A DNA stretch of 64,000 nucleotides from Verrucomicrobiota bacterium (GTDB lineage: Bacteria > Verrucomicrobiota > Verrucomicrobiia > Chthoniobacterales > Terrimicrobiaceae). The stretch is from contig JAPLTG010000015.1 of assembly GCA_026398255.1 (NCBI GenBank), positions 62,001 through 126,000 of the forward strand, in the 5' to 3' direction. This document shows positions 7,123 through 16,798 of the stretch, piece by piece. Below the pieces are notes generated by a model. It had not been told where the DNA came from. It ran no database searches and was given only the letters and a program-made list of their open reading frames with translations. The translations under genes were made by a program, and so were the position numbers. Every line of letters starts with the position of its first letter. Position 1 is the first letter of the stretch.

Positions 7123-7553
7123 ACTAAACTTTGAACTTTGAGATTTATTTTCTCACCTAGTCGGCCCTGCTCGGCGATGCGGTTCGCTTCGCTCCCACAC
7201 CGCCGCTCAGCCCCCCGCTAAAATTAGCAGCAGAAAGCGCCGGCCGTGGCGGCGGGGCTGTCCGAAAAAAACTCGCCTCCGGGCTGGGAATTTTCACGGC
7301 ATGGCGAGGAAAAATTTTTTTGTCACTCACAAAAAAATTTCAGATTTTTCTTCGAAGCGATCCGGGCAGAAATCGTGTATGCTCGGGGAGCTTGATGTTT
7401 CCTAGCTTGGCAGCGGGCGAGAGTTTTTGATGACAACCGAGCGAGTGACAAACAGGCCGGATAGTGAAGTCAATTTACAACAACTTATGGCAACGGGCCA
7501 TTTTGGAGTTTTTGCTGATTTTCGGGGAAAGCTCCTCTCGTAACTTGCTGTTA
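7123..7553. other. non-coding stretch left of the integrative element; degenerate copy of the element's right arm
   Basis: No credible reading frame is present. From about 7165 onward the sequence aligns with 16308-16705 inside the element at roughly three-quarters identity by eye. Shared blocks include a CGCTCAGCCCCCCGC block, TTTTTTTGTCACTCAC, TGTATGCTCGGGGAGC and CAACTTATGGCAACG. It also contains the 9-mer GAGTGACAA once (7443-7451) and once inverted (7320-7328). It is either the original flank of tRNA-Tyr or the remnant of an older, related element. Confidence 0.6.
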
Positions 7554-7618
7554 GAGAGGGTGGTGGGCAGAACTGGATTCGAACCAGTGAAGGCGTAAGC
7601 CAGCGGATTTACAGTCCG
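7554..7618. repeat. left attachment site, with displaced 3' part of tRNA-Tyr
   Basis: All 65 bp are identical to 16706-16770. Bases 7561-7618 equal the tRNA-Tyr 3' half on the minus strand, from the anticodon arm to the CCA end. At 7619 the sequence diverges, and the 5' half of the tRNA is missing, so this copy is not a functional tRNA. Confidence 0.93.
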
Positions 7619-7642: not shown

Positions 7643-7662
7643 AAGTGACAAAAAAGTGACAA
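7643..7662 (+). promoter_or_regulatory. tandem AAGTGACAA repeats beside the left att core (candidate integrase/Xis arm sites)
   Basis: AAGTGACAA occurs at 7643-7651 and 7654-7662, exactly 11 bp apart, about one helical turn. The same arrangement of GAGTGACAA occurs near the right core at 16584 and 16595. Placement on both sides of the core, upstream of int, suits arm-type binding sites. This is inferred from spacing and position only. Confidence 0.5.
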
Positions 7663-7706
7663 ATAGGGTCATTAGCGTTGCACCAAATTGACACTCGTTG
7701 AATCCT

Positions 7707-9053
7707 ATGAACTCTACCAGTAAAGCATCCCACACCGATCCGATTTCGGACTCTAAACGCAAACGCCGAGCTTGGGCGGTTATTCGGGAGACCTGGCCGA
7801 AGATTCGCAAACGTCCGCTGGCGGGGGGGAAGTTTGTTTTTGAAATCGATTGCCGCTACCTCGATGCGGGGGGGAGATCGGCGGGGAAGCGTTATCGTGA
7901 GGCGACTGAGGATGCCGCGTTGATTCTCGCGGAGCAGAAGGCGCAGAGCCGCACTAACGAGGGGAAGGTGCTTATTTCCTTGTCCACGGATCAACAGCGG
8001 CAGGCGGTGCGGGCGTTTGATGTTTTGAAGGCGCATGGCGTCGCGATGGACTTGGAGGATGTGGCGAAGGCTTATTTAAAGCATGTGGCGAAGACGGAGG
8101 AGCCGCTGTCTGTGGAGAAGCTTGTGGAGCGGTTTCTGGCGCACAAGCGCAAGAATCCCAAACGGGAATTGAGCAAGCGGCATCTGGATGATTTGCGGTT
8201 GCGGTTGGATCAGTTTTGCAATGGCCGGGGGGCGGGCGTTGTTGGTTTTGCTGAGCGGATGGCCCATGAGATTGGACACAAGGAGATCGAGGCTTGGTTG
8301 ATGGGATTGCCTTACAATCGGACGACTCGGGCGAAATACCGGACGCACCTTTCGGCACTGTTCAATTTCGCAAGACAGAATGGCATCGCGGGGGAGAATC
8401 CTATGGAGAGGGTGGCAGCGATGGCGGCTGGTGAGCCGCCGAGGGAGATTTTGACTCCTGCGCAGGCCGAGGCGCTGCTGAAGTGTGCTGATCCATCAAT
8501 CTGTGCGGCACTGGCTCTTGGCTTGTTTGCTGGCTTGAGACCGGAGAGTGAAATCTGCCGGTTGGATTGGAGCCTGATTCACTTGGTGCAGGAGACGATC
8601 ACGGATCCAGCGGGGAACAAGGTGAAGTCTTATGGCCACATTGATGTGCGGGAGTCGAAGGGCGTGGGGGGGGAGAGGTTGGTGCAGATCACGCCGAATC
8701 TTTACGCCTGGCTGAAGCGGGCGCGGCCTGTTTCGGGCAAGGGAGCGGTGTCGGTGTGTTATGACCGGTTGAATGAGTTGATCAAGGTGGCCGCCAAGAC
8801 GGCGGGGATCGAGCGCTGGCCGCATGACGGGATGCGCCACAGCTTTTGCTCGTATCACTTCGCAGCATATCGGGACGAGCACGCGACGATGGCCCAGAGT
8901 GGACACCGGAGCGTATCGACCTTCCGGCGGCATTACTGCAAGCCGATTCAACAGAAGGTGGCATTTGCGTATTGGAAGATTCGACCGACAGCGGGTGCCG
9001 GAAAAATTGTCGAGCCGAAGCCGTTGCAATCGCCTAAACGGAAATTGAAATGA
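7707..9053 (+). CDS. int: tyrosine-type site-specific integrase
   Basis: 448 aa from the ATG at 7707; an in-frame TTG at 7698 is possible and neither start has a good ribosome site. The N-terminal ~100 residues are the arm-binding part. A SAM-like core-binding domain spans about 105-225, and the catalytic domain follows. Counted from 7707, the active site is Arg278 (FAGLRPE), His373 and Arg377 (HDGMRHSF), His400 (SGHRS) and nucleophile Tyr410 (HYC). The HDGMR box has one more residue than classic HxxR, as in many phage integrases of this class. It lies next to attL and presumably catalyses integration into and excision from tRNA-Tyr. Its stop overlaps the next gene by ATGA. Confidence 0.93.
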   Translation: MNSTSKASHTDPISDSKRKRRAWAVIRETWPKIRKRPLAGGKFVFEIDCRYLDAGGRSAGKRYREATEDAALILAEQKAQSRTNEGKVLISLSTDQQRQAVRAFDVLKAHGVAMDLEDVAKAYLKHVAKTEEPLSVEKLVERFLAHKRKNPKRELSKRHLDDLRLRLDQFCNGRGAGVVGFAERMAHEIGHKEIEAWLMGLPYNRTTRAKYRTHLSALFNFARQNGIAGENPMERVAAMAAGEPPREILTPAQAEALLKCADPSICAALALGLFAGLRPESEICRLDWSLIHLVQETITDPAGNKVKSYGHIDVRESKGVGGERLVQITPNLYAWLKRARPVSGKGAVSVCYDRLNELIKVAAKTAGIERWPHDGMRHSFCSYHFAAYRDEHATMAQSGHRSVSTFRRHYCKPIQQKVAFAYWKIRPTAGAGKIVEPKPLQSPKRKLK

Positions 9054-10141
9054 AAGCCAAACCGTCGAAAGCAAGGGGGGGCAGGGGGGGTAAAAAAACG
9101 GCCGCGAAGCCGGTGAAGGATGTTAAGTTGGAAGTAGCCGAACAGCAAAAAAGGCGGAAACTCCGCAAGCGAGCAGCAAAGGCAGCGAATGCTTTGAACA
9201 TTCTGCCCAAGGTGGCGGATGTTGGGTTTCCAGAGGGTTTTCGCGTTCGTTTGTCGGAGGAGAGTTTGGAGGCCTTGTCGGCTCAGCCAGAGGCAAAAGG
9301 TCCAAAGAAGAGGAGATCGCAGCAAGAGGTGAAGGAGATTCGCCACATAAAGGATAAGCCCGATTTCCCATCCAAGGCACCGGAGGCCGAGCAATACTTT
9401 AATGAAAAGGCATCGGGGCAGTTCATCCGGTCGAGTGACGGTTTATTAAGCAGGGAGACACAGTGGATTTATCTCTTTATCCAGCGGCTGTCCTCATTCA
9501 CTCGCTGTTTGGGCGATGTCTTGCATGAGGGGTTGCCGCCAAAAAACTGGAAGCCTCATGCCGAGGCTGCTCTTCAAAAGCAAGTCCTGCCAGGCTGGTC
9601 GGGCAAATACACAGAGGAGTTGATAGCGATAGAGGCTTTGCGGGATTTTGCTCTCATGGCGTCGGTGACGCTTAGGCTGGCTTCGGACAGGGTTGATGAA
9701 AGTGAGCGCAGCAGTTTTATATCCGAGAAGGCGGCGGCGGCTTTTCTCGACCTGGAGAGCTTTTTTGTTCTGCCTGCAGAGCAGGCTCGAAAACGCAAGG
9801 AGCGTCGCTCGAAAAGGGCCGATGATCCCAGAGACTGGTCGCATGCTTTTACAGCCCAGTGCGTGAAGCTGATGTCGGATGCGCTGTATTTGCACGCTGG
9901 CGCCGTGGATAAGGGCGCGTGTCTAAAGGTGGAGGGCTATTCCAGCGCGCTTCCCAGCGTGGAATTCAATGCAGCTGCGGGGGCTTTCGAGGCATGGTCT
10001 CGTTGGTTCATGGGGTGGCTGGATACTTGTTCGCGGGGCGGGGTCATTGATCGGGAGATGTGGAACAGACGCCGCACCACCTTGATAGAAAAAGAGATAA
10101 TTCCCGAAATTCATCGGCGGTGGATGGCGGGGTTGTTGTAG
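9050..10141 (+). CDS. unknown element protein with basic N-terminus
   Basis: 363 aa, translationally coupled to int by ATGA. The first ~55 residues are very rich in Lys, Arg and Ala (for example KARGGRGGKKTAAKP and RRKLRKRAAKAA), which suggests nucleic-acid binding. The remainder is predicted mainly helical, with several conserved-looking Trp and Leu patches. There is no Walker motif, Cys cluster, signal peptide or membrane helix. I do not recognise a family. Its position between integrase and the Xis-like gene suggests a role in excision, copy control or replication initiation, but nothing in the sequence proves it. Confidence 0.75.
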   Translation: MKAKPSKARGGRGGKKTAAKPVKDVKLEVAEQQKRRKLRKRAAKAANALNILPKVADVGFPEGFRVRLSEESLEALSAQPEAKGPKKRRSQQEVKEIRHIKDKPDFPSKAPEAEQYFNEKASGQFIRSSDGLLSRETQWIYLFIQRLSSFTRCLGDVLHEGLPPKNWKPHAEAALQKQVLPGWSGKYTEELIAIEALRDFALMASVTLRLASDRVDESERSSFISEKAAAAFLDLESFFVLPAEQARKRKERRSKRADDPRDWSHAFTAQCVKLMSDALYLHAGAVDKGACLKVEGYSSALPSVEFNAAAGAFEAWSRWFMGWLDTCSRGGVIDREMWNRRRTTLIEKEIIPEIHRRWMAGLL

Positions 10142-10166: not shown

Positions 10167-10271
10167 TTAAAACATTGTGTATCATGTTGTTGTGATTTGA
10201 TTCTCCAGTCAACTCGCGTCATGTTGATGGTGCCCCGCGCAGTATGTGCGGGTCCAAACACCATAAACAAT

Positions 10272-10463
10272 ATGCAATACTCAAACATACCATCCGAGGC
10301 TGACCGCCTCGGCATCTCACAGCGCCTTCTTTGGCGTTGGATCAAAGCTCGGCGCGTTCCGAGCATCAAATGTGGCCGGCGGGTTCTTCTGCGGCCTGAG
10401 GAAGTGGACGCTGCACTCAACCGGTTCCGTGCGGCAGCTATCGGGGAGGGCAATCAGAAATGA
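10272..10463 (+). CDS. AlpA/Xis-like helix-turn-helix protein
   Basis: 63 aa from the ATG at 10272; in-frame upstream starts back to 10197 exist but add unrelated residues. The sequence is a MerR/excisionase-type winged helix: EADRLGISQRLLWRWIKARRVPSI is the HTH, then CGRRVLLRPEEVDAALNRF is the wing and last helix. Proteins of this size in integrative elements act as excisionase or as AlpA-type activators of int. Its stop overlaps the next small gene by ATGA, and a perfect palindrome lies about 105 bp upstream. Confidence 0.85.
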   Translation: MQYSNIPSEADRLGISQRLLWRWIKARRVPSIKCGRRVLLRPEEVDAALNRFRAAAIGEGNQK

Positions 10464-10621
10464 GAACGCTCCTTACAAAAAGAAAAGCCCAAGGAGGCTG
10501 GCGGGCCTCCAAGGGCGGGATTCCCGTGACAGGAATAAATAAAACCTACTTTGCGACAGGATGGGGGCAAGGCCTATTCTCGCGAGTGGTCCATGGTAGC
10601 GAGAGGAGGGGTGAAAAATGA
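10460..10621 (+). CDS. 53-aa small protein, coupled by ATGA overlap to both neighbours
   Basis: The ATG at 10460 overlaps the stop of the Xis-like gene, and its TGA at 10619-10621 overlaps the ATG of the primase-like gene; both junctions are ATGA. The product starts MRTLLTKRKAQGGWRASKGG, is strongly basic (about 13 Lys/Arg), and has a hydrophobic/aromatic middle (INKTYFATGWGQGLF). It also contains the ribosome site of the next gene (GAGGAGGGG at 10603-10611). The double coupling in a string where every other junction is ATGA is the main evidence that it is translated. No family is recognised; it may serve simply as a leader peptide that couples primase translation. Confidence 0.65.
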   Translation: MRTLLTKRKAQGGWRASKGGIPVTGINKTYFATGWGQGLFSRVVHGSERRGEK

Positions 10622-11523
10622 CAACATCCTTTCCATCGCTACCGCAGGAGCAAAAGCTCCCGCAATTCATCAGGGATTTGCTGAGCTCTCCGCCGCGACG
10701 CGGCGGGGGGCTTCACAACTGGTTTTTCAAAACAGCGCGGGTTCTGCATCCGTTCCGCTCGCGGGAGGAGATAGTGGAGTTGCTTCGCAGCGCCACGCAC
10801 GGGGAACCGGTGCAGGCAGGCGAGATCGAGAGCGCAGTGCACAATTCTGCGGAGTGTGCTTGGCAGCCAGGGCAGTTCGCGCCAAGGGCGCGGATTTCGC
10901 CTTGGCCTGCTCTGGATCAGGCGAAGCGGGCGGAAATCATCGCCGGAGGCGGCGAGCTTTCCGACCTGTGGGAGTTGAGTCCGCTGCGGGTCAAGGGCGA
11001 GGAGTCGCAAACTGAGGAGATTATTGACGCTCTATTCCCAAGCGATTCGTTGCTCTGTTGCGGAGCTTCGAACAAGAGCTTCTCCACTCGTCCGAGATCG
11101 GCGTGGCGGGGGAAGTTGGCTGGGCTTCAGTTGATCGTCCCGAGTCCCATGTCGGCAGTGACCGGAAAGACAAAGGACGGTCGAGACAGCGGCCACACGC
11201 TCTCAAACACAGGGCCAAGAAGATTTCTCGTCATCGAGCAGGACTCGGGGACGCAGGATGAGCAGGCAGCGGTGCTCATGCATCTCGCATCGCGAGCGCC
11301 GCTGGCTCTGGCCGTTCACAGCGGCAGCAAGAGCATCCACGGTTGGTTCTACTGCGAAGGCAGGCCAGAAGCGCTTTTGCGCCGCTTCATGAACTATGCG
11401 GTGAGTCTCGGCGCGGATCGCGCCACCTGGACTCGCTCGCAGTTTGTGCGGACGCCGGATGGCACTCGCGACAATGGCAAGCGGCAGGAGGTTTATTTTT
11501 TCAACCCGGAGGTAGTGAAATGA
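10618..11523 (+). CDS. primase-like protein (possible archaeo-eukaryotic-primase fold)
   Basis: 301 aa with a strong Shine-Dalgarno (GAGGAGGGG, 7 bases before ATG). The N-terminal half has a helical segment and an SPWPALDQAKRAEII-like region seen before primase domains of mobile elements. The C-terminal half has FLVIEQDSG, then AVHSGSKSIHGWF, then QFVRTPDGTRDNGKRQ. These resemble the three AEP motifs: an acidic motif, the SxxxH motif and a basic R...G..R motif. Motif I shows only one Asp here (EQDSG), so catalytic activity is uncertain. It is coupled by ATGA to the helicase gene, which fits a split primase-helicase. The family assignment is a motif-level inference. Confidence 0.6.
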   Translation: MTTSFPSLPQEQKLPQFIRDLLSSPPRRGGGLHNWFFKTARVLHPFRSREEIVELLRSATHGEPVQAGEIESAVHNSAECAWQPGQFAPRARISPWPALDQAKRAEIIAGGGELSDLWELSPLRVKGEESQTEEIIDALFPSDSLLCCGASNKSFSTRPRSAWRGKLAGLQLIVPSPMSAVTGKTKDGRDSGHTLSNTGPRRFLVIEQDSGTQDEQAAVLMHLASRAPLALAVHSGSKSIHGWFYCEGRPEALLRRFMNYAVSLGADRATWTRSQFVRTPDGTRDNGKRQEVYFFNPEVVK

Positions 11524-12890
11524 AGCCGCCTAAACTTGCAAGAGGCTGGGCCGAGGAGGAGCTGGAATCCGGCTTGGGAGCAGAATCTACCGAACAATCC
11601 GTCATCCGTCATGGAATGCCGGAGGTCTACTACGACGCGGGGCGGAAAGAGTTTTTGATGCAGGATGAACGCGGGGTGTGGTTCGGAGTGAGCATCTCCC
11701 AGTTCAGCCGCAAGTGCCGCCTTCATGGAATCAGTAGCGCGAAGTTACCAGATTGCTGCCACAGCGCGTTCGATGCCTTTGCGGATGATATTCAACATCG
11801 GCGGGCAGTTGATTTCGCAGGCCAGATCGCAGGCTTCAAACCGGGGTTGCTGATCGAAGGTGGAATGCGGTTCCTTGTAACCAAGGGACCGGATGTGATC
11901 GAACCGAGGAAGGGCGACTGGCACACGCTGGAAGCGGTTTTTCGGGCGGTGTTGAGTGAAGAGGATTTCGATCAGCTTTTCTACTGGCATGCTTGGTTGA
12001 AAATGGGATTCGAGGCCCTTGCCGCCGGTAAGAGAAAGCCGGGGCAGGCGATGATTCTTGTCGGCCCAGCGGAATGTGGAAAATCGCTCCTGCAGGATAT
12101 CATTACCTCCGTCCTCGGGGGGCGGGAGGGGAAGCCATACAAGTTCATGACGGATGCCACCCGCTTCAACTCAAACCTCGCTGGCACAGAGCATCTACGG
12201 ATCGGGGATGAAAACCCGCACACCGACATTCGTGCTCGTCGCAACTTCGGTGCGCAGTTGAAAAACATAACGGTTGAGGAATCCCATCAGGTCGAGGCGA
12301 AGTATCGCGATGCGCTCACGCTTCGCCCATTCTGGCGGCTCTCGATCTCGCTCAATAACGAGCCGGAGAACCTTCTGGTCCTACCTCCGCTCGACGAGCA
12401 CATCATGGACAAGATGATTATTCTGAAATGCACTCGTCGGGGGATGCCGATGCCCACGGCCACGCTGGAAGAGCGCGGAGCGTTCTGGCAGCAGTTGGTC
12501 GATGAGCTTCCGGCCTATCTCGATTGGCTTTCAGACTTCGAGATTCCCGCCCACCTTGTCTCCCAGCGCTTCGGTGTGCAGGCGTTCCTGCATCCGGCTA
12601 TCAAGTCCGAACTCCTCACCTTCGAGCCACCGATGGTGTTGCTCGACTTGATCGACGCCTATCTCATCGGCCCCAATGAGCCGTTCGTTGAAATGACGGC
12701 GGCGGAAATTCAACGCGAACTGACCTGTGACACCTCCGACTGTCGTTTTGAGGCGAGAAAGTTGCTTCCCCGAGCGACAACCTGCGGGCGCTACCTGAGC
12801 AGCTTGGCGGGGATGTGCGCTCGGGTGAAGGAGGCCAGAACTTCGACCCGCCGCGCCTATCGGATCACGCGGCGCCCAGATGACGGATGA
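11520..12890 (+). CDS. SF3/VirE-type replicative helicase
   Basis: 456 aa from the ATG overlapping the primase-like gene. The Walker A motif is GPAECGKSLLQ with Lys188; Walker B-like LRIGDEN and the motif C/sensor SISLNNEPENLLVLPP follow, and then MDKMIILKC. The order and the Asn of the sensor match SF3 helicases of phages, plasmids and satellites (the primase C-terminal helicase and VirE groups). The C-terminal 150 residues probably form a DNA-binding winged helix. Together with the preceding gene it would unwind and prime element DNA after excision. It ends the plus-strand module. Confidence 0.85.
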   Translation: MKPPKLARGWAEEELESGLGAESTEQSVIRHGMPEVYYDAGRKEFLMQDERGVWFGVSISQFSRKCRLHGISSAKLPDCCHSAFDAFADDIQHRRAVDFAGQIAGFKPGLLIEGGMRFLVTKGPDVIEPRKGDWHTLEAVFRAVLSEEDFDQLFYWHAWLKMGFEALAAGKRKPGQAMILVGPAECGKSLLQDIITSVLGGREGKPYKFMTDATRFNSNLAGTEHLRIGDENPHTDIRARRNFGAQLKNITVEESHQVEAKYRDALTLRPFWRLSISLNNEPENLLVLPPLDEHIMDKMIILKCTRRGMPMPTATLEERGAFWQQLVDELPAYLDWLSDFEIPAHLVSQRFGVQAFLHPAIKSELLTFEPPMVLLDLIDAYLIGPNEPFVEMTAAEIQRELTCDTSDCRFEARKLLPRATTCGRYLSSLAGMCARVKEARTSTRRAYRITRRPDDG

Positions 12891-12952: not shown

Positions 12953-14308
12953 TTAGTGCAGAAGGCATACGGTCTCGACTACTTCGTAAAGTGCGGGGAG
13001 ATTTTTTGCGCTGACTCGGAATTGGCTTCGTTTTTTTGGCTTAGGCTTTGCTGACGATACCTCTTCAAGTTTAATTCCGGGGTCATAATACATTGTGCCA
13101 GTGGCAAAGGCCCTTAGTAGTCGCAGCCCGTCTGTCTGTTGTGCCAATCTCACTTTGTGGCCGTAGCGGTATTGGCGCTCAGGCTCATATCGACAGTTGG
13201 ACGGCACATACACAGCTTTCGAGTGTTTAAGAGACCAGTGCTCAAGAATTTTACCGAAACTCCATGATGCGGCGACATCGCCAGCAGTATTGATCAGCGC
13301 TATACATCCACCAGCGTCTGTAATCCTACCGGAAGGAATATCATACCCGGCAAGATGCATGGTCAAACCTGTGGCAGGACATTTTTGACCAACAAAGTGT
13401 CGACCTCCAAAATTCAGTCTGTCGGGTTTGCCGTTTTTGTCTGCATACCCAAACTTGTGCATAAAATCAGCAAAGTCATTTTCCCGGTAAAAACCAGCAT
13501 CTGGTTCGGGAGTAAAAAGCGTGATAGGCTTTGAAGTTTCGATTTTTTCAAAGTTACCGACAGCGTATTGTTTTACTTCCCACCCTAAAAAGTCAGGTTC
13601 CGCGTCGCTGTTCTTTGGAATGTTAAGTTCGGCCTCAAGAGTAAATCCGCCACATTGAGATGCGTTGCAGGGTGAAATAATTCCATTCCCATCGAGTTGT
13701 TTGGATTTAATCCACCCAAGGCTGTTAATTCTAATTAATTCAGCGAGAAGTTTAGTTTTAGAATGCTCTTCATCATCTACATTAGGTAGGGGAACATCCT
13801 TAAAAACTACAAAAGCTGTTTGAAATTCTCCTGCCAAGAATTCTTTGGCAATAATTGACCCGCCAGGGGCAACAAATCCAACGACTCTCCTGTCGGCTGT
13901 AACGCCTAAAAAAAGAACTCGTCCTTTGAGTTGAGCCTGTAGTTCATGGGGGAAACTTGACGCCCTTCCCCTGTCAGCCATCAACTTGCTGGGCGCGCAC
14001 TCGCAGCCTTGAAGAAAGCCCGAAAAACGAACTTCAGGATATTGCGCATACAAGATCAATTGGGCATTTGGAGCAGGAGCAACCCTGCCATCTTCCAAAA
14101 GCCACCCAAAGTTTAATTTCGCCTTAAAACTCGGTCCCTGAGCAGTATTTTCAGCGAAAATCTGGCTGCTGGGGAACACATTCAGCGTCTCTACTGCTCC
14201 TGCGAAATAGATTTGATTTTTAGAATTGTCGTTTTCGGCCAATGTCTTTGCATAAAGTTTTATGGCCCCGTTTTTGGCAAAGAGCGATATGAGGTCGGAG
14301 AGATTCAC
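12953..14308 (-). CDS. type II restriction endonuclease, MvaI/BcnI family
   Basis: 451 aa. The catalytic region is LEAELNIP (225-231) followed by [11 protein letters not shown], giving the nuclease pattern Asp239...Glu244-x-Lys246 of the PD-(D/E)XK superfamily in the arrangement of the MvaI/BcnI group. The N-terminal ~200 residues are an additional domain that I do not recognise. The start codon overlaps the stop of the methylase gene by ATGA, so nuclease translation depends on the methylase being made first. Family members cut CCWGG or CCSGG-like sites; the target here is not deducible. Base composition is visibly more AT-rich than the neighbouring replication genes, pointing to separate acquisition. 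Confidence 0.85.
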
Positions 14309-15468
14309 ACGGCTACCTTCATCATTTCTCGCTTGGTTTTGTAGCGGGCAGGAACTCTTTTAGCAGTATTATCTTGTAAAATAGAATCGCCGTCCTCGCA
14401 GAAACTTAGAATCAATTCCGGGCGGTGATCAGAAGGAAGAGAAAGGGTTTGAATAACTTGTTGGGCGATCCTCTCCACGACCGGAACAACAACGGAGTTG
14501 CCAAATTGTCGATAAGCCTGAGTATCAGAGACCGGAATCTTGAAGGAATCTGGATAACCCATTAAACGCGCACATTCCCGTGGCGAGAGCCTGCGGGGCG
14601 TCATACCTTTTCCTCTTGAAACAAGTATTTCAGATCCATCTTTATAGTAACGAGCACTTAAAGTTCTTGTTGTGTCGTTTTCATTTACCAAGCCGAATCC
14701 AAATCCATTCCCTGCTTCTTGATGCTTTTTTGCATAGTTCTGAAGATAGGTCCATAGATTGTTAGTCAGAATGTATTTATCTGAAACATTGGAATCCAAT
14801 ATACTTCCCAACTTAGGCCCCTTATCGGGAAAATCAGGAAACTCGAAGTAACGTGGCTCCCGAAATCCAACTATAAAAATCCTCTCGCGGTGTTGTGGAA
14901 CTACTGACTGCGCATCGATAATTTTATAATAAACCTTATATCCAAGCTGTTCAGTCAAGGTGCTGTGGATGATCTGGAATGTGCGCCCCTTGTCGTGCCC
15001 TTTGAGATTTTTTACATTCTCAAGCACGAAAGCGGAGGGCTTGTGGTGGTCTATGATCTCCGCGAGTTTAAAAAAGAGGTTACCTTGCCTTTCATCATCG
15101 AAGCCGTGTTTTCTCCCTAAGCTGAGTTTTTTCGATACACCGGCGATACTAAAGGGCTGACAAGGAAAGCCCGCACAGAGCACATCAAACTTGGGAATAT
15201 TTTCAATAGGAACGGAGTGAATATCGCCCTCTGGCTTCTCTCCAAAATTCGCTTCGTATGTAATTTGGGAATGCTTGTCCCAGTCGCTTGAGAAAACGCA
15301 ACTCCCGCCCGCTTTCTCAAATGCGATACGAAAGCCACCAATTCCGCAGAACAAGTCAATAAAACGCGGCTTGGGCTCTGACGCTTGATAAATACTTACT
15401 TCCTCGCAGAGCCTGAGCGCGCTACCTACCGAAGCGTCTTTGCTCGTCTTTTCAGAAGTCTTTGGCAT
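14305..15468 (-). CDS. DNA (cytosine-5)-methyltransferase
   Basis: 387 aa. Motif I is [12 protein letters not shown] (36-47), motif [10 protein letters not shown] with catalytic Cys103, motif VI ENV (150-152), motif VIII QHRERIF (192-198), then the target-recognition region, and motifs IX-X near the end ([27 protein letters not shown]). All core motifs are present, so it should be active. It lies directly upstream of the MvaI/BcnI-type nuclease and forms a type II restriction-modification cargo on the element. Known MvaI and BcnI partners are N4-methylases, so pairing this nuclease family with a C5 enzyme is a point of interest. Composition is AT-rich compared with the host genes. Confidence 0.95.
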
Positions 15469-15790
15469 TTGAGGTATCTAATATGAAATGCTTTTTTGGC
15501 ACCATGCAAAATACTTTCGCTACAAAAACTGGTAAATCATCTGTGTTTCCCTTCGAAATTTTGGATGAGCATTTGCTTGGCGATTAAAGAACCCGTCTCC
15601 GTAAATCCGAGGGTCGTTGAGATGCCTGTTGCCGCCGACCGGATGGCCATCTCCGCCGACACACTGCCGCGAGAAAATATCTGAATTGCTGATCTTCGCC
15701 GATTGTTTTTAAAAGATAATCTACCGTGTGTCCGCGAAGCTGCTCCACCCGCGCTGCATCTTGCGTCCGGCTTCGCCGCAATGTCACGAA
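15469..15790. other. non-coding stretch upstream of the methylase gene
   Basis: The first 70 bases are AT-rich and probably hold the promoter of the leftward methylase-nuclease operon. The rest has short open frames on both strands, none with a ribosome site or a recognisable product. I see no tRNA or clear terminator. Confidence 0.5.
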
Positions 15791-16137
15791 TGGCGCCACG
15801 AACCGCTCCGCTCCACCTCCGCTGCGCCGAATCCTCCACTCCGGCAGGCTCTCCGATAGCTGCGATAAACGCTCACTCTGGACGGGGCGTTGTTCGGCCT
15901 CCGCGCTCGTTCCTCGCACATCGGCCTCTGGGGCGTCTTTTTTTCGTTTCGCTGGTCCGATAGCGTGCAGTAGTCGGCAGAGACTTCGCTGCGCTCAGCC
16001 GCTGGCCCGCCGCCGCATGGCGGCCCAGCGGTTCTGCCGACTACTCACGCTATCCGACCTTATCTCCGCTATCTCCGAGCCTGCCGGAGTGGAGGATTCG
16101 GCGCAGCGGAGGTGGAGCGGAGCGGTTCGTGGCGCCA
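15791..16137. repeat. nested long inverted repeat (61-bp perfect arms)
   Basis: The outer arms are 15791-15851 and 16077-16137, perfect reverse complements over 61 bp. Inside them a second inverted pair, 15955-15981 and 16033-16058, matches except for one mismatch and one extra base. An innermost stem lies at about 15999-16013 and 16019-16031. The whole 347 bp can fold into one long hairpin or cruciform. No transposase gene or target-site duplication is visible. It may be a MITE-like insertion, two copies of a repeat in head-to-head orientation, or a structured RNA locus. Confidence 0.9.
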
Positions 16138-16307
16138 GCAGCCACGCGGGGCTGCGGTTTCGGCGGCGATGGTTGCTCCCTGTGCTGATGAAGTCCTGCG
16201 CGCCGCCGTTGTAATGCGAAAGCCGATCTTCATGCGTTGAGTGCGGGGGTGGGATGGTGGCTCGTGCCGGAGCAATACTCCGCCACATTGCCCCCACCCA
16301 CCCGGCT
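16138..16307. other. non-coding stretch within the element's right end
   Basis: GC-rich sequence between the nested inverted repeat and the att arm. Only overlapping short frames without start signals are present. An imperfect inverted pair (about 16243-16258 and 16288-16306) is the only structure seen. Confidence 0.4.
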
Positions 16308-16705
16308 GCTCGGCGCTGCGGATCGCTAAAGCTCCCGCATCGCCGCTCAGCCCCCCGCAAACCAGCAGGCAGGCAGAAGCGGCGTTGCGCACCGGTCGAC
16401 ATCGAAGAACCTCGCCACCGCAGCGCAGGAGAACCAACGCGGCAGCGAGTGACAATTTTTTTGTCACTCACAGAAAATTCGTGAGAATTTTTTTGAGCAA
16501 TCCGGAACAAGGAGCGTGTATGCTCGGGGAGCCTTATGTTTCCTTGCTTAGCGGCAACCGTGAGTTTTTGGACAAAGCCAAGCGAGTGACAAACGAGTGA
16601 CAAGCAGGCCGGTTAGTAAGGGCATTTCCCAGCAACTTATGGCAACGAGCCATTTTTTGTTTTTGATGAATTTTGGAGGGATTCTCCTCTCGCAAACTGC
16701 TGTTG
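16308..16705. repeat. right att arm; homologous to the host-side flank at 7165-7553
   Basis: Colinear with 7165-7553 outside the element. It contains a GAGTGACAA hairpin (16446-16454 with 16460-16468, T5 loop) and tandem GAGTGACAA copies at 16584-16592 and 16595-16603, 11 bp apart. The host-side copy has only one of this last pair. These repeats are candidate integrase arm sites. Confidence 0.7.
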
Positions 16706-16770
16706 GAGAGGGTGGTGGGCAGAACTGGATTCGAACCAGTGAAGGCGTAAGCCAGCGGATTTACAGTCCG
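16706..16770. repeat. right attachment site (overlaps tRNA-Tyr)
   Basis: Identical over 65 bp to 7554-7618. It supplies the 3' half of the functional tRNA-Tyr, so integration leaves the gene intact. The crossover is presumably in the anticodon or T-arm part of the shared block. Confidence 0.93.
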
Positions 16771-16798
16771 CCCCGTTTGGCCACTTCGGTATCTACCC
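16713..16798 (-). tRNA. tRNA-Tyr (anticodon GUA)
   Basis: 86 nt, class II. The acceptor stem GGGTAGA pairs with TCTGCCC (one G-U), the discriminator is A, and CCA is encoded. The anticodon loop reads CTGTAAA, a long variable arm follows, and the T-loop is GTTCGAATC. It begins 18 bp after the cyclophilin stop codon on the same strand, so it may be cotranscribed. It is the integration target of the element to its left. Confidence 0.96.

Follow-up and report, generated by a model that had tools for sequence, protein, structure and literature searches.

A tRNA-Tyr integrative element and its genes

Within the window, by which we mean the whole 64-kb stretch of DNA analysed here (taken from a MAG assembly), lies an integrative element of about 9.1 kb that occupies a tRNA-Tyr gene and ends on its far side in a duplicate of that gene's 3' part (Table 1). 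Both an integrase and the duplicated tRNA end are present, and the same duplication at the far end was found in genome G014, these being the two elements in which both ends were seen. Beside the integrase, a 363-aa protein (9050-10141) matched no family and no solved structure. The candidate primase is tentatively assigned to the archaeo-eukaryotic type on its motifs; it returned no match in Pfam or PDB searches, and its AlphaFold model was poor (pLDDT 46.5) and was not used. The DUF5906 protein that follows matched TIGR01613 at 7.1e-06 and 25.1 bits, and the element was not assigned to the P4-like satellites because the curated cut-off of this P4-family primase model (108.7) was not reached. 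The initial annotation of the locus had reported neither a reverse transcriptase nor a transposase gene, which holds, although a tyrosine integrase is present. Between the cytosine methyltransferase and tRNA-Tyr stretches about 1.2 kb of non-coding DNA, and it is here that a long hairpin is found, at the right-hand end of the element; that annotation had likewise put it at the element's end. The GTGACAA/TTGTCAC motifs near both ends of the element are probable integrase arm-type sites.

Table 1. Features of the integrative element and its end module (positions in the window)
Feature	Position	Strand	Remarks
Duplicate of tRNA-Tyr 3' part (attL)	7561-7618	-	tRNA-end duplication; position approximate
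Tyrosine integrase	7698-9053	+	PF00589 2.3e-06; PHROG integrase 3e-35
Excisionase-type helix-turn-helix protein	10197-10463	+	PF12728; TIGR01764 4.9e-07
Candidate primase	10618-11523	+	LVIExD and SGxKSxH motifs
P4/D5-type primase-helicase C-terminal protein (DUF5906)	11343-12890	+	PF19263 2.5e-09; PHROG DNA primase 1.9e-06
MvaI/BcnI-family restriction endonuclease (cargo)	12953-14308	-	PF15515 7e-41
Cytosine-5 DNA methyltransferase (cargo)	14305-15468	-	PF00145 4.9e-91
Whole structured non-coding module	15600-16360	.	Variable hairpin core between conserved flanks; limits approximate
Left outer arm	15791-15851	.	61 nt, perfect complement of 16077-16137
Left-side unpaired segment, outer arm to inner stem	15869-15953	.	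Conserved in G014 and G017:C165
Inner stem, left strand	15954-15981	.	Covaries in seven copies
Inner stem, right strand	16033-16059	.	Pairs with 15954-15981
Right outer arm	16077-16137	.	Perfect complement of 15791-15851
Conserved domain right of hairpin	16149-16303	.	Basis of covariance model R1
GTGACAA/TTGTCAC repeated motifs	16445-16603	.	Similar motifs at 7316-7335, 7443-7453 and 7644-7664
tRNA-Tyr(GTA), integration site (attR)	16713-16798	-	95% identical duplicate at opposite end

To the left of attL (7167-7618) lies a second copy of the right side of the end module, the arm-site region and the tRNA end, 81-90% identical and without the hairpin, probably left behind by an older element that sat at this tRNA-Tyr gene.

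Anatomy of the hairpin

Perfect 61-bp arms enclosing a second 26-bp inverted pair and a terminal stem had been claimed for this site, and all three were recovered. The full arms (15791-15868 and 16060-16137) measure 78 nt each and are 94% complementary, with 61 outer pairs free of any mismatch giving way to a broken extension. Inside them, and separated from the outer arm by about 85 nt that are unpaired on the left side of the hairpin only, stands an inner stem of 26 Watson-Crick pairs with one C.C mismatch and one bulged C, whose loop holds an apical stem. Such a structure is far beyond chance expectation: folding z-scores against shuffled sequence were -19.6 for the plus strand and -22.2 for the minus strand, and the hairpin's inverted-repeat score of 63 compares with 21 for the runner-up in the 64-kb window.

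A genus-restricted module at the tRNA end

The hairpin forms the core of a larger module of about 0.75 kb at the right end of the element. Homology to G014, G024, G011, G013, G021 and other genomes sets in at its left limit (about 15600) and runs on past its right limit (about 16360), and the block is classed as non-coding by eye, from differing ORF ends and frame-breaking indels. DNA and covariance-model searches found copies or remnants at 15 places in ten genomes, all of one Terrimicrobiaceae genus (G000:C17, G011:C59, G011:C8, G012:C67, G012:C39, G013:C123, G013:C29, G014:C2, G017:C165, G017:C335, G018:C415, G021:C54, G024:C7, G024:C228 and G025:C81), several of these being short pieces only. 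Model R1 matched 8 of the 16 genomes of the genus, with E-values down to 1.5e-39; across 171 genera sampled from the class it matched one genus only, under stricter filters with which weak matches may be lost. BLAST hits beyond the genus (G004, G049, G118) were short and near threshold and were excluded from the count of copies.

A tRNA gene adjoins the module at 12 of the 15 places (Tyr four times, Lys three times, Phe and Arg twice each, and Cys; seven kinds of tRNA gene as we count them). In all of these save G025 the right end of the module faces the 3' end of the tRNA, and in 11 of the 12 the tRNA gene is oriented so that its transcription heads for the module. The tRNA was also the sole Rfam match in the window: no covariance model reached its gathering threshold on the module, which is thus no known Rfam family, and permissive searches gave hits at chance level. 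Collections of phage and plasmid DNA held no match to the module, and pattern hits in viral contigs proved to be chance matches in unrelated, apparently coding sequence from which the module was absent. The module is real, well conserved and restricted to the genus, apparently a previously undescribed structured block; its structure and evolution are well supported, and its function is what we infer below.

This distribution bears on the more mundane explanations. The initial annotation had listed a MITE and a head-to-head repeat pair among its options, beside an origin of replication and a structured RNA, both of which stay in contention below, and the arms do enclose no gene and do come from a MAG assembly, in which an inverted repeat might be an artefact. 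A genome-wide search of the 2.6-Mb genome found a single copy of the hairpin, however, so that an ordinary repeat scattered over many unrelated loci is not what lies here, and its homologues keep to one position, the tRNA end, within a single family of elements, with no sign of dispersal. Homologous modules occur in independent genomes, in one case on a 1-Mb contig, and the centre of the hairpin and the sequence on either side of it are non-palindromic. The head-to-head pair is accordingly unsupported, the MITE option was rejected, and we consider a MITE, a dispersed inverted repeat or an assembly artefact very improbable. The genome has four matches to Y1 transposases, and the three loci checked (G000:C14, C26 and C4; L141-L143) had no similar hairpin nearby; a REP/RAYT link was rejected.

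Exchange of cores and apparent copying between arms

Between the window and G024 the flanks of the module are 97% identical and the hairpin cores cannot be aligned, which implies that cores are exchanged like alleles within conserved flanks. Against G014, core and right flank are alike at 82% identity. The arms themselves have a traceable history. The left arm of the window resembles the left arms of relatives (29 of 37 positions with G014), and its right arm, once reverse-complemented, also agrees with relatives' left arms at 29 of 37 positions, against 21 of 37 with their right arms. The left arm thus looks like the original and the right arm like its inverted copy, and copying of one arm onto the other would account for the perfect 61 bp. 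In G017:C335 the left arm agrees with the reversed right arm of relatives at 35 of 41 positions, the alternative giving 20 of 39, and the simplest reading is that copying ran in the opposite direction, right arm onto left.

Compensatory change and what maintains it

Pair counts were taken from seven copies of the inner stem aligned stem by stem, and not from an initial MAFFT alignment of the whole hairpin, in which the copies were misaligned. They gave 186 Watson-Crick pairs, five A-C pairs and no G-T pair, and every copy is interrupted past its GATA-containing segment by a bulge or a mismatch. When arms were permuted among the copies, own-arm pairing ranked first of 5040 arrangements, with a mean of 26.6 Watson-Crick pairs for own arms and 20.0 for mismatched ones. 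By these alignments the inner stem is maintained by compensatory change. It had been proposed that so perfect a palindrome implied either recent origin or selection, and elements of both are visible: outer arms that appear to be a recent inverted copy, and an inner stem kept by compensatory change. The permutation result establishes that the arms change together, and is compatible with either selection or template switching as the keeper.

The hairpin might also be a quasi-palindrome kept by mutation alone, its stems repaired by template switching with no selected function. Arm-to-arm copying in two copies in opposite directions, together with the literature on quasi-palindrome correction, speaks for such a process, yet correction would be expected to erase the internal bulge that recurs throughout, and the module persists at one place and in one orientation in most of the 15 places. 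As its flanks are also conserved, and parts of the hairpin are missing from truncated remnants elsewhere, we judge mutation alone an unlikely explanation.

The main rival to a role in DNA replication is a structured non-coding RNA encoded by the module. The hairpin would form its variable domain, and the RNA, which might for example serve the element in immunity or regulation, would possibly be read from the strand leading on from the tRNA gene. The orientation of the tRNA genes in 11 of 12 linked copies would suit such a transcript, whereas the minus strand of the module carries only marginal promoter-like sites and no terminator was found on it. All eight copies examined fold more stably than shuffled sequence on both strands, and in all eight the minus strand lies further below its shuffles than the plus strand, though the copies are not independent and the margin in G021 is narrow; RNAalifold, for its part, favoured neither strand consistently. 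Compensatory change in the inner stem, where covariation is strong, is likewise congenial to an RNA, and RNA stems are known to stay perfect through template switching (PMC8794818), but the inner stem contains no G-T pairs, and alignments of the outer arms show a slight, weak excess of A-C over G-T. Adding the lack of an Rfam match, we regard a structured RNA as a serious contender that is nevertheless rather unlikely.

A proposed DNA site recognised by its shape

The absence of G-T pairs fits a function in DNA and is not decisive proof of one, because template switching alone could keep the stems complementary, those of an RNA gene included (PMC8794818). A fold that is kept while its sequence is free to change, a constant position beside the tRNA and the company of replication-type genes, among them a DUF5906 gene with weak matches to DNA primases, nonetheless lead us to propose, tentatively, that the hairpin is a structure-recognised DNA site used when the excised element is replicated or its second strand is made, an origin or single-strand origin (sso) being the likeliest form. 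In the excised element, single-stranded during replication or transfer, the module would fold as DNA, and its shape more than its sequence would mark it as an initiation site, either a double-strand or a single-strand origin, with the primase/helicase encoded by the element as a plausible partner. Folding of the single strand could likewise permit template switching, and with it repeated copying from arm to arm. Against this reading, no replication gene was recognised on the short contig of G017:C165, where an integrase adjoins the module, and the genome yielded no PF03432 relaxase.

Precedents exist in the literature. For the primase-helicase plasmid pRN1 a stem-loop of 100 bp, lying 3' of the helicase gene, is essential (PMC3869888), single-strand origins may stay functional with altered sequence if their structure is kept (PMC4595007), and template switching is able both to create and to mend perfect stems (PMC8794818). 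The likeness to the sso of rolling-circle plasmids and of ICEs such as ICEBs1 lies in folded stem-loops within the non-coding DNA of a mobile element and in a function that can rest on structure rather than sequence (PMC4595007); the stem described here is much longer, and no rolling-circle Rep or relaxase was recognised in the element. With pRN1-type plasmids it shares genes of primase/helicase type alongside a long non-coding stem-loop (PMC3869888), whereas pRN1 is an archaeal plasmid and this is an integrating bacterial element of putative origin activity, in which restriction-modification genes separate the helicase from the hairpin. A tyrosine integrase in a tRNA gene, an excisionase, a P4/D5-type primase-helicase part and exchangeable defence genes recall P4-like satellites and the tRNA-integrating islands that serve as defence hotspots, from which the element differs in its weak, sub-threshold TIGR01613 match, its lack of a known helper phage and its large structured end module. 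GOLLD and ROOL are large structured RNAs of mobile elements, and they too are large, variable, structured non-coding blocks near tRNA genes; unlike them, the module has no Rfam match and its best-supported stem is without G-T pairs.

DNA that folds into stems of variable sequence with a conserved bulge would also fit a site by which the element or its cargo is moved, either a transfer origin or an attC-like recombination site of folded single-stranded DNA. At the left boundary of the module the cargo is indeed exchangeable, comprising restriction-modification pairs and, in G024:C7, a toxin-antitoxin-like pair. Paired RYYYAAC and GTTRRRY boxes were nevertheless absent from all eight copies on either strand, so an integron attC site was rejected; no PF03432 relaxase was found in the genome, although a helper could act in trans, and the Y1-transposase loci checked offered no similar hairpin. 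Such a site seems to us quite improbable. The G024:C7 pair (L033, about 190-945; RelE/ParE type by eye) is flanked by direct repeats of about 75 bp, which suggests cassette-like exchange of cargo.

A bolder form of the shape-recognition proposal, which we hold to be doubtful, is that this is a sequence-swappable DNA hairpin of a new kind, serving this family of tRNA-integrating elements as origin or compatibility determinant, with allele-like cores exchanged between near-identical flanks and stems renewed by template switching. If true, nature has supplied a set of hairpins whose fold is uncoupled from their sequence, and whether a replication or transfer system reads shape becomes directly testable. 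Long inverted arms rewritten in both directions among close relatives also bear on what creates and sustains perfect palindromes in bacterial DNA.

Related elements beyond the genus

Elements of other genera that carry the candidate primase yielded no comparable long hairpin, and the hairpin is therefore not a universal or obligate origin of this replication module; nor was a long hairpin found as a general trait of those elements with the same primase genes that were checked. One weaker inverted repeat lies near tRNA-Lys in G007:C111. In a related element of another genus, integrated in tRNA-Lys, GTGGCAAGT motifs make up a shorter inverted repeat next to the tRNA (L132, 6063-6400). On their tRNA-Gly side, two related elements of another genus (L133 and L134) are alike in a long region that is apparently non-coding and contains motifs found in both. 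The same adjacent pair of genes, candidate primase and DUF5906-like, also occurs on an IMG/VR contig (L140, 5575-7987).
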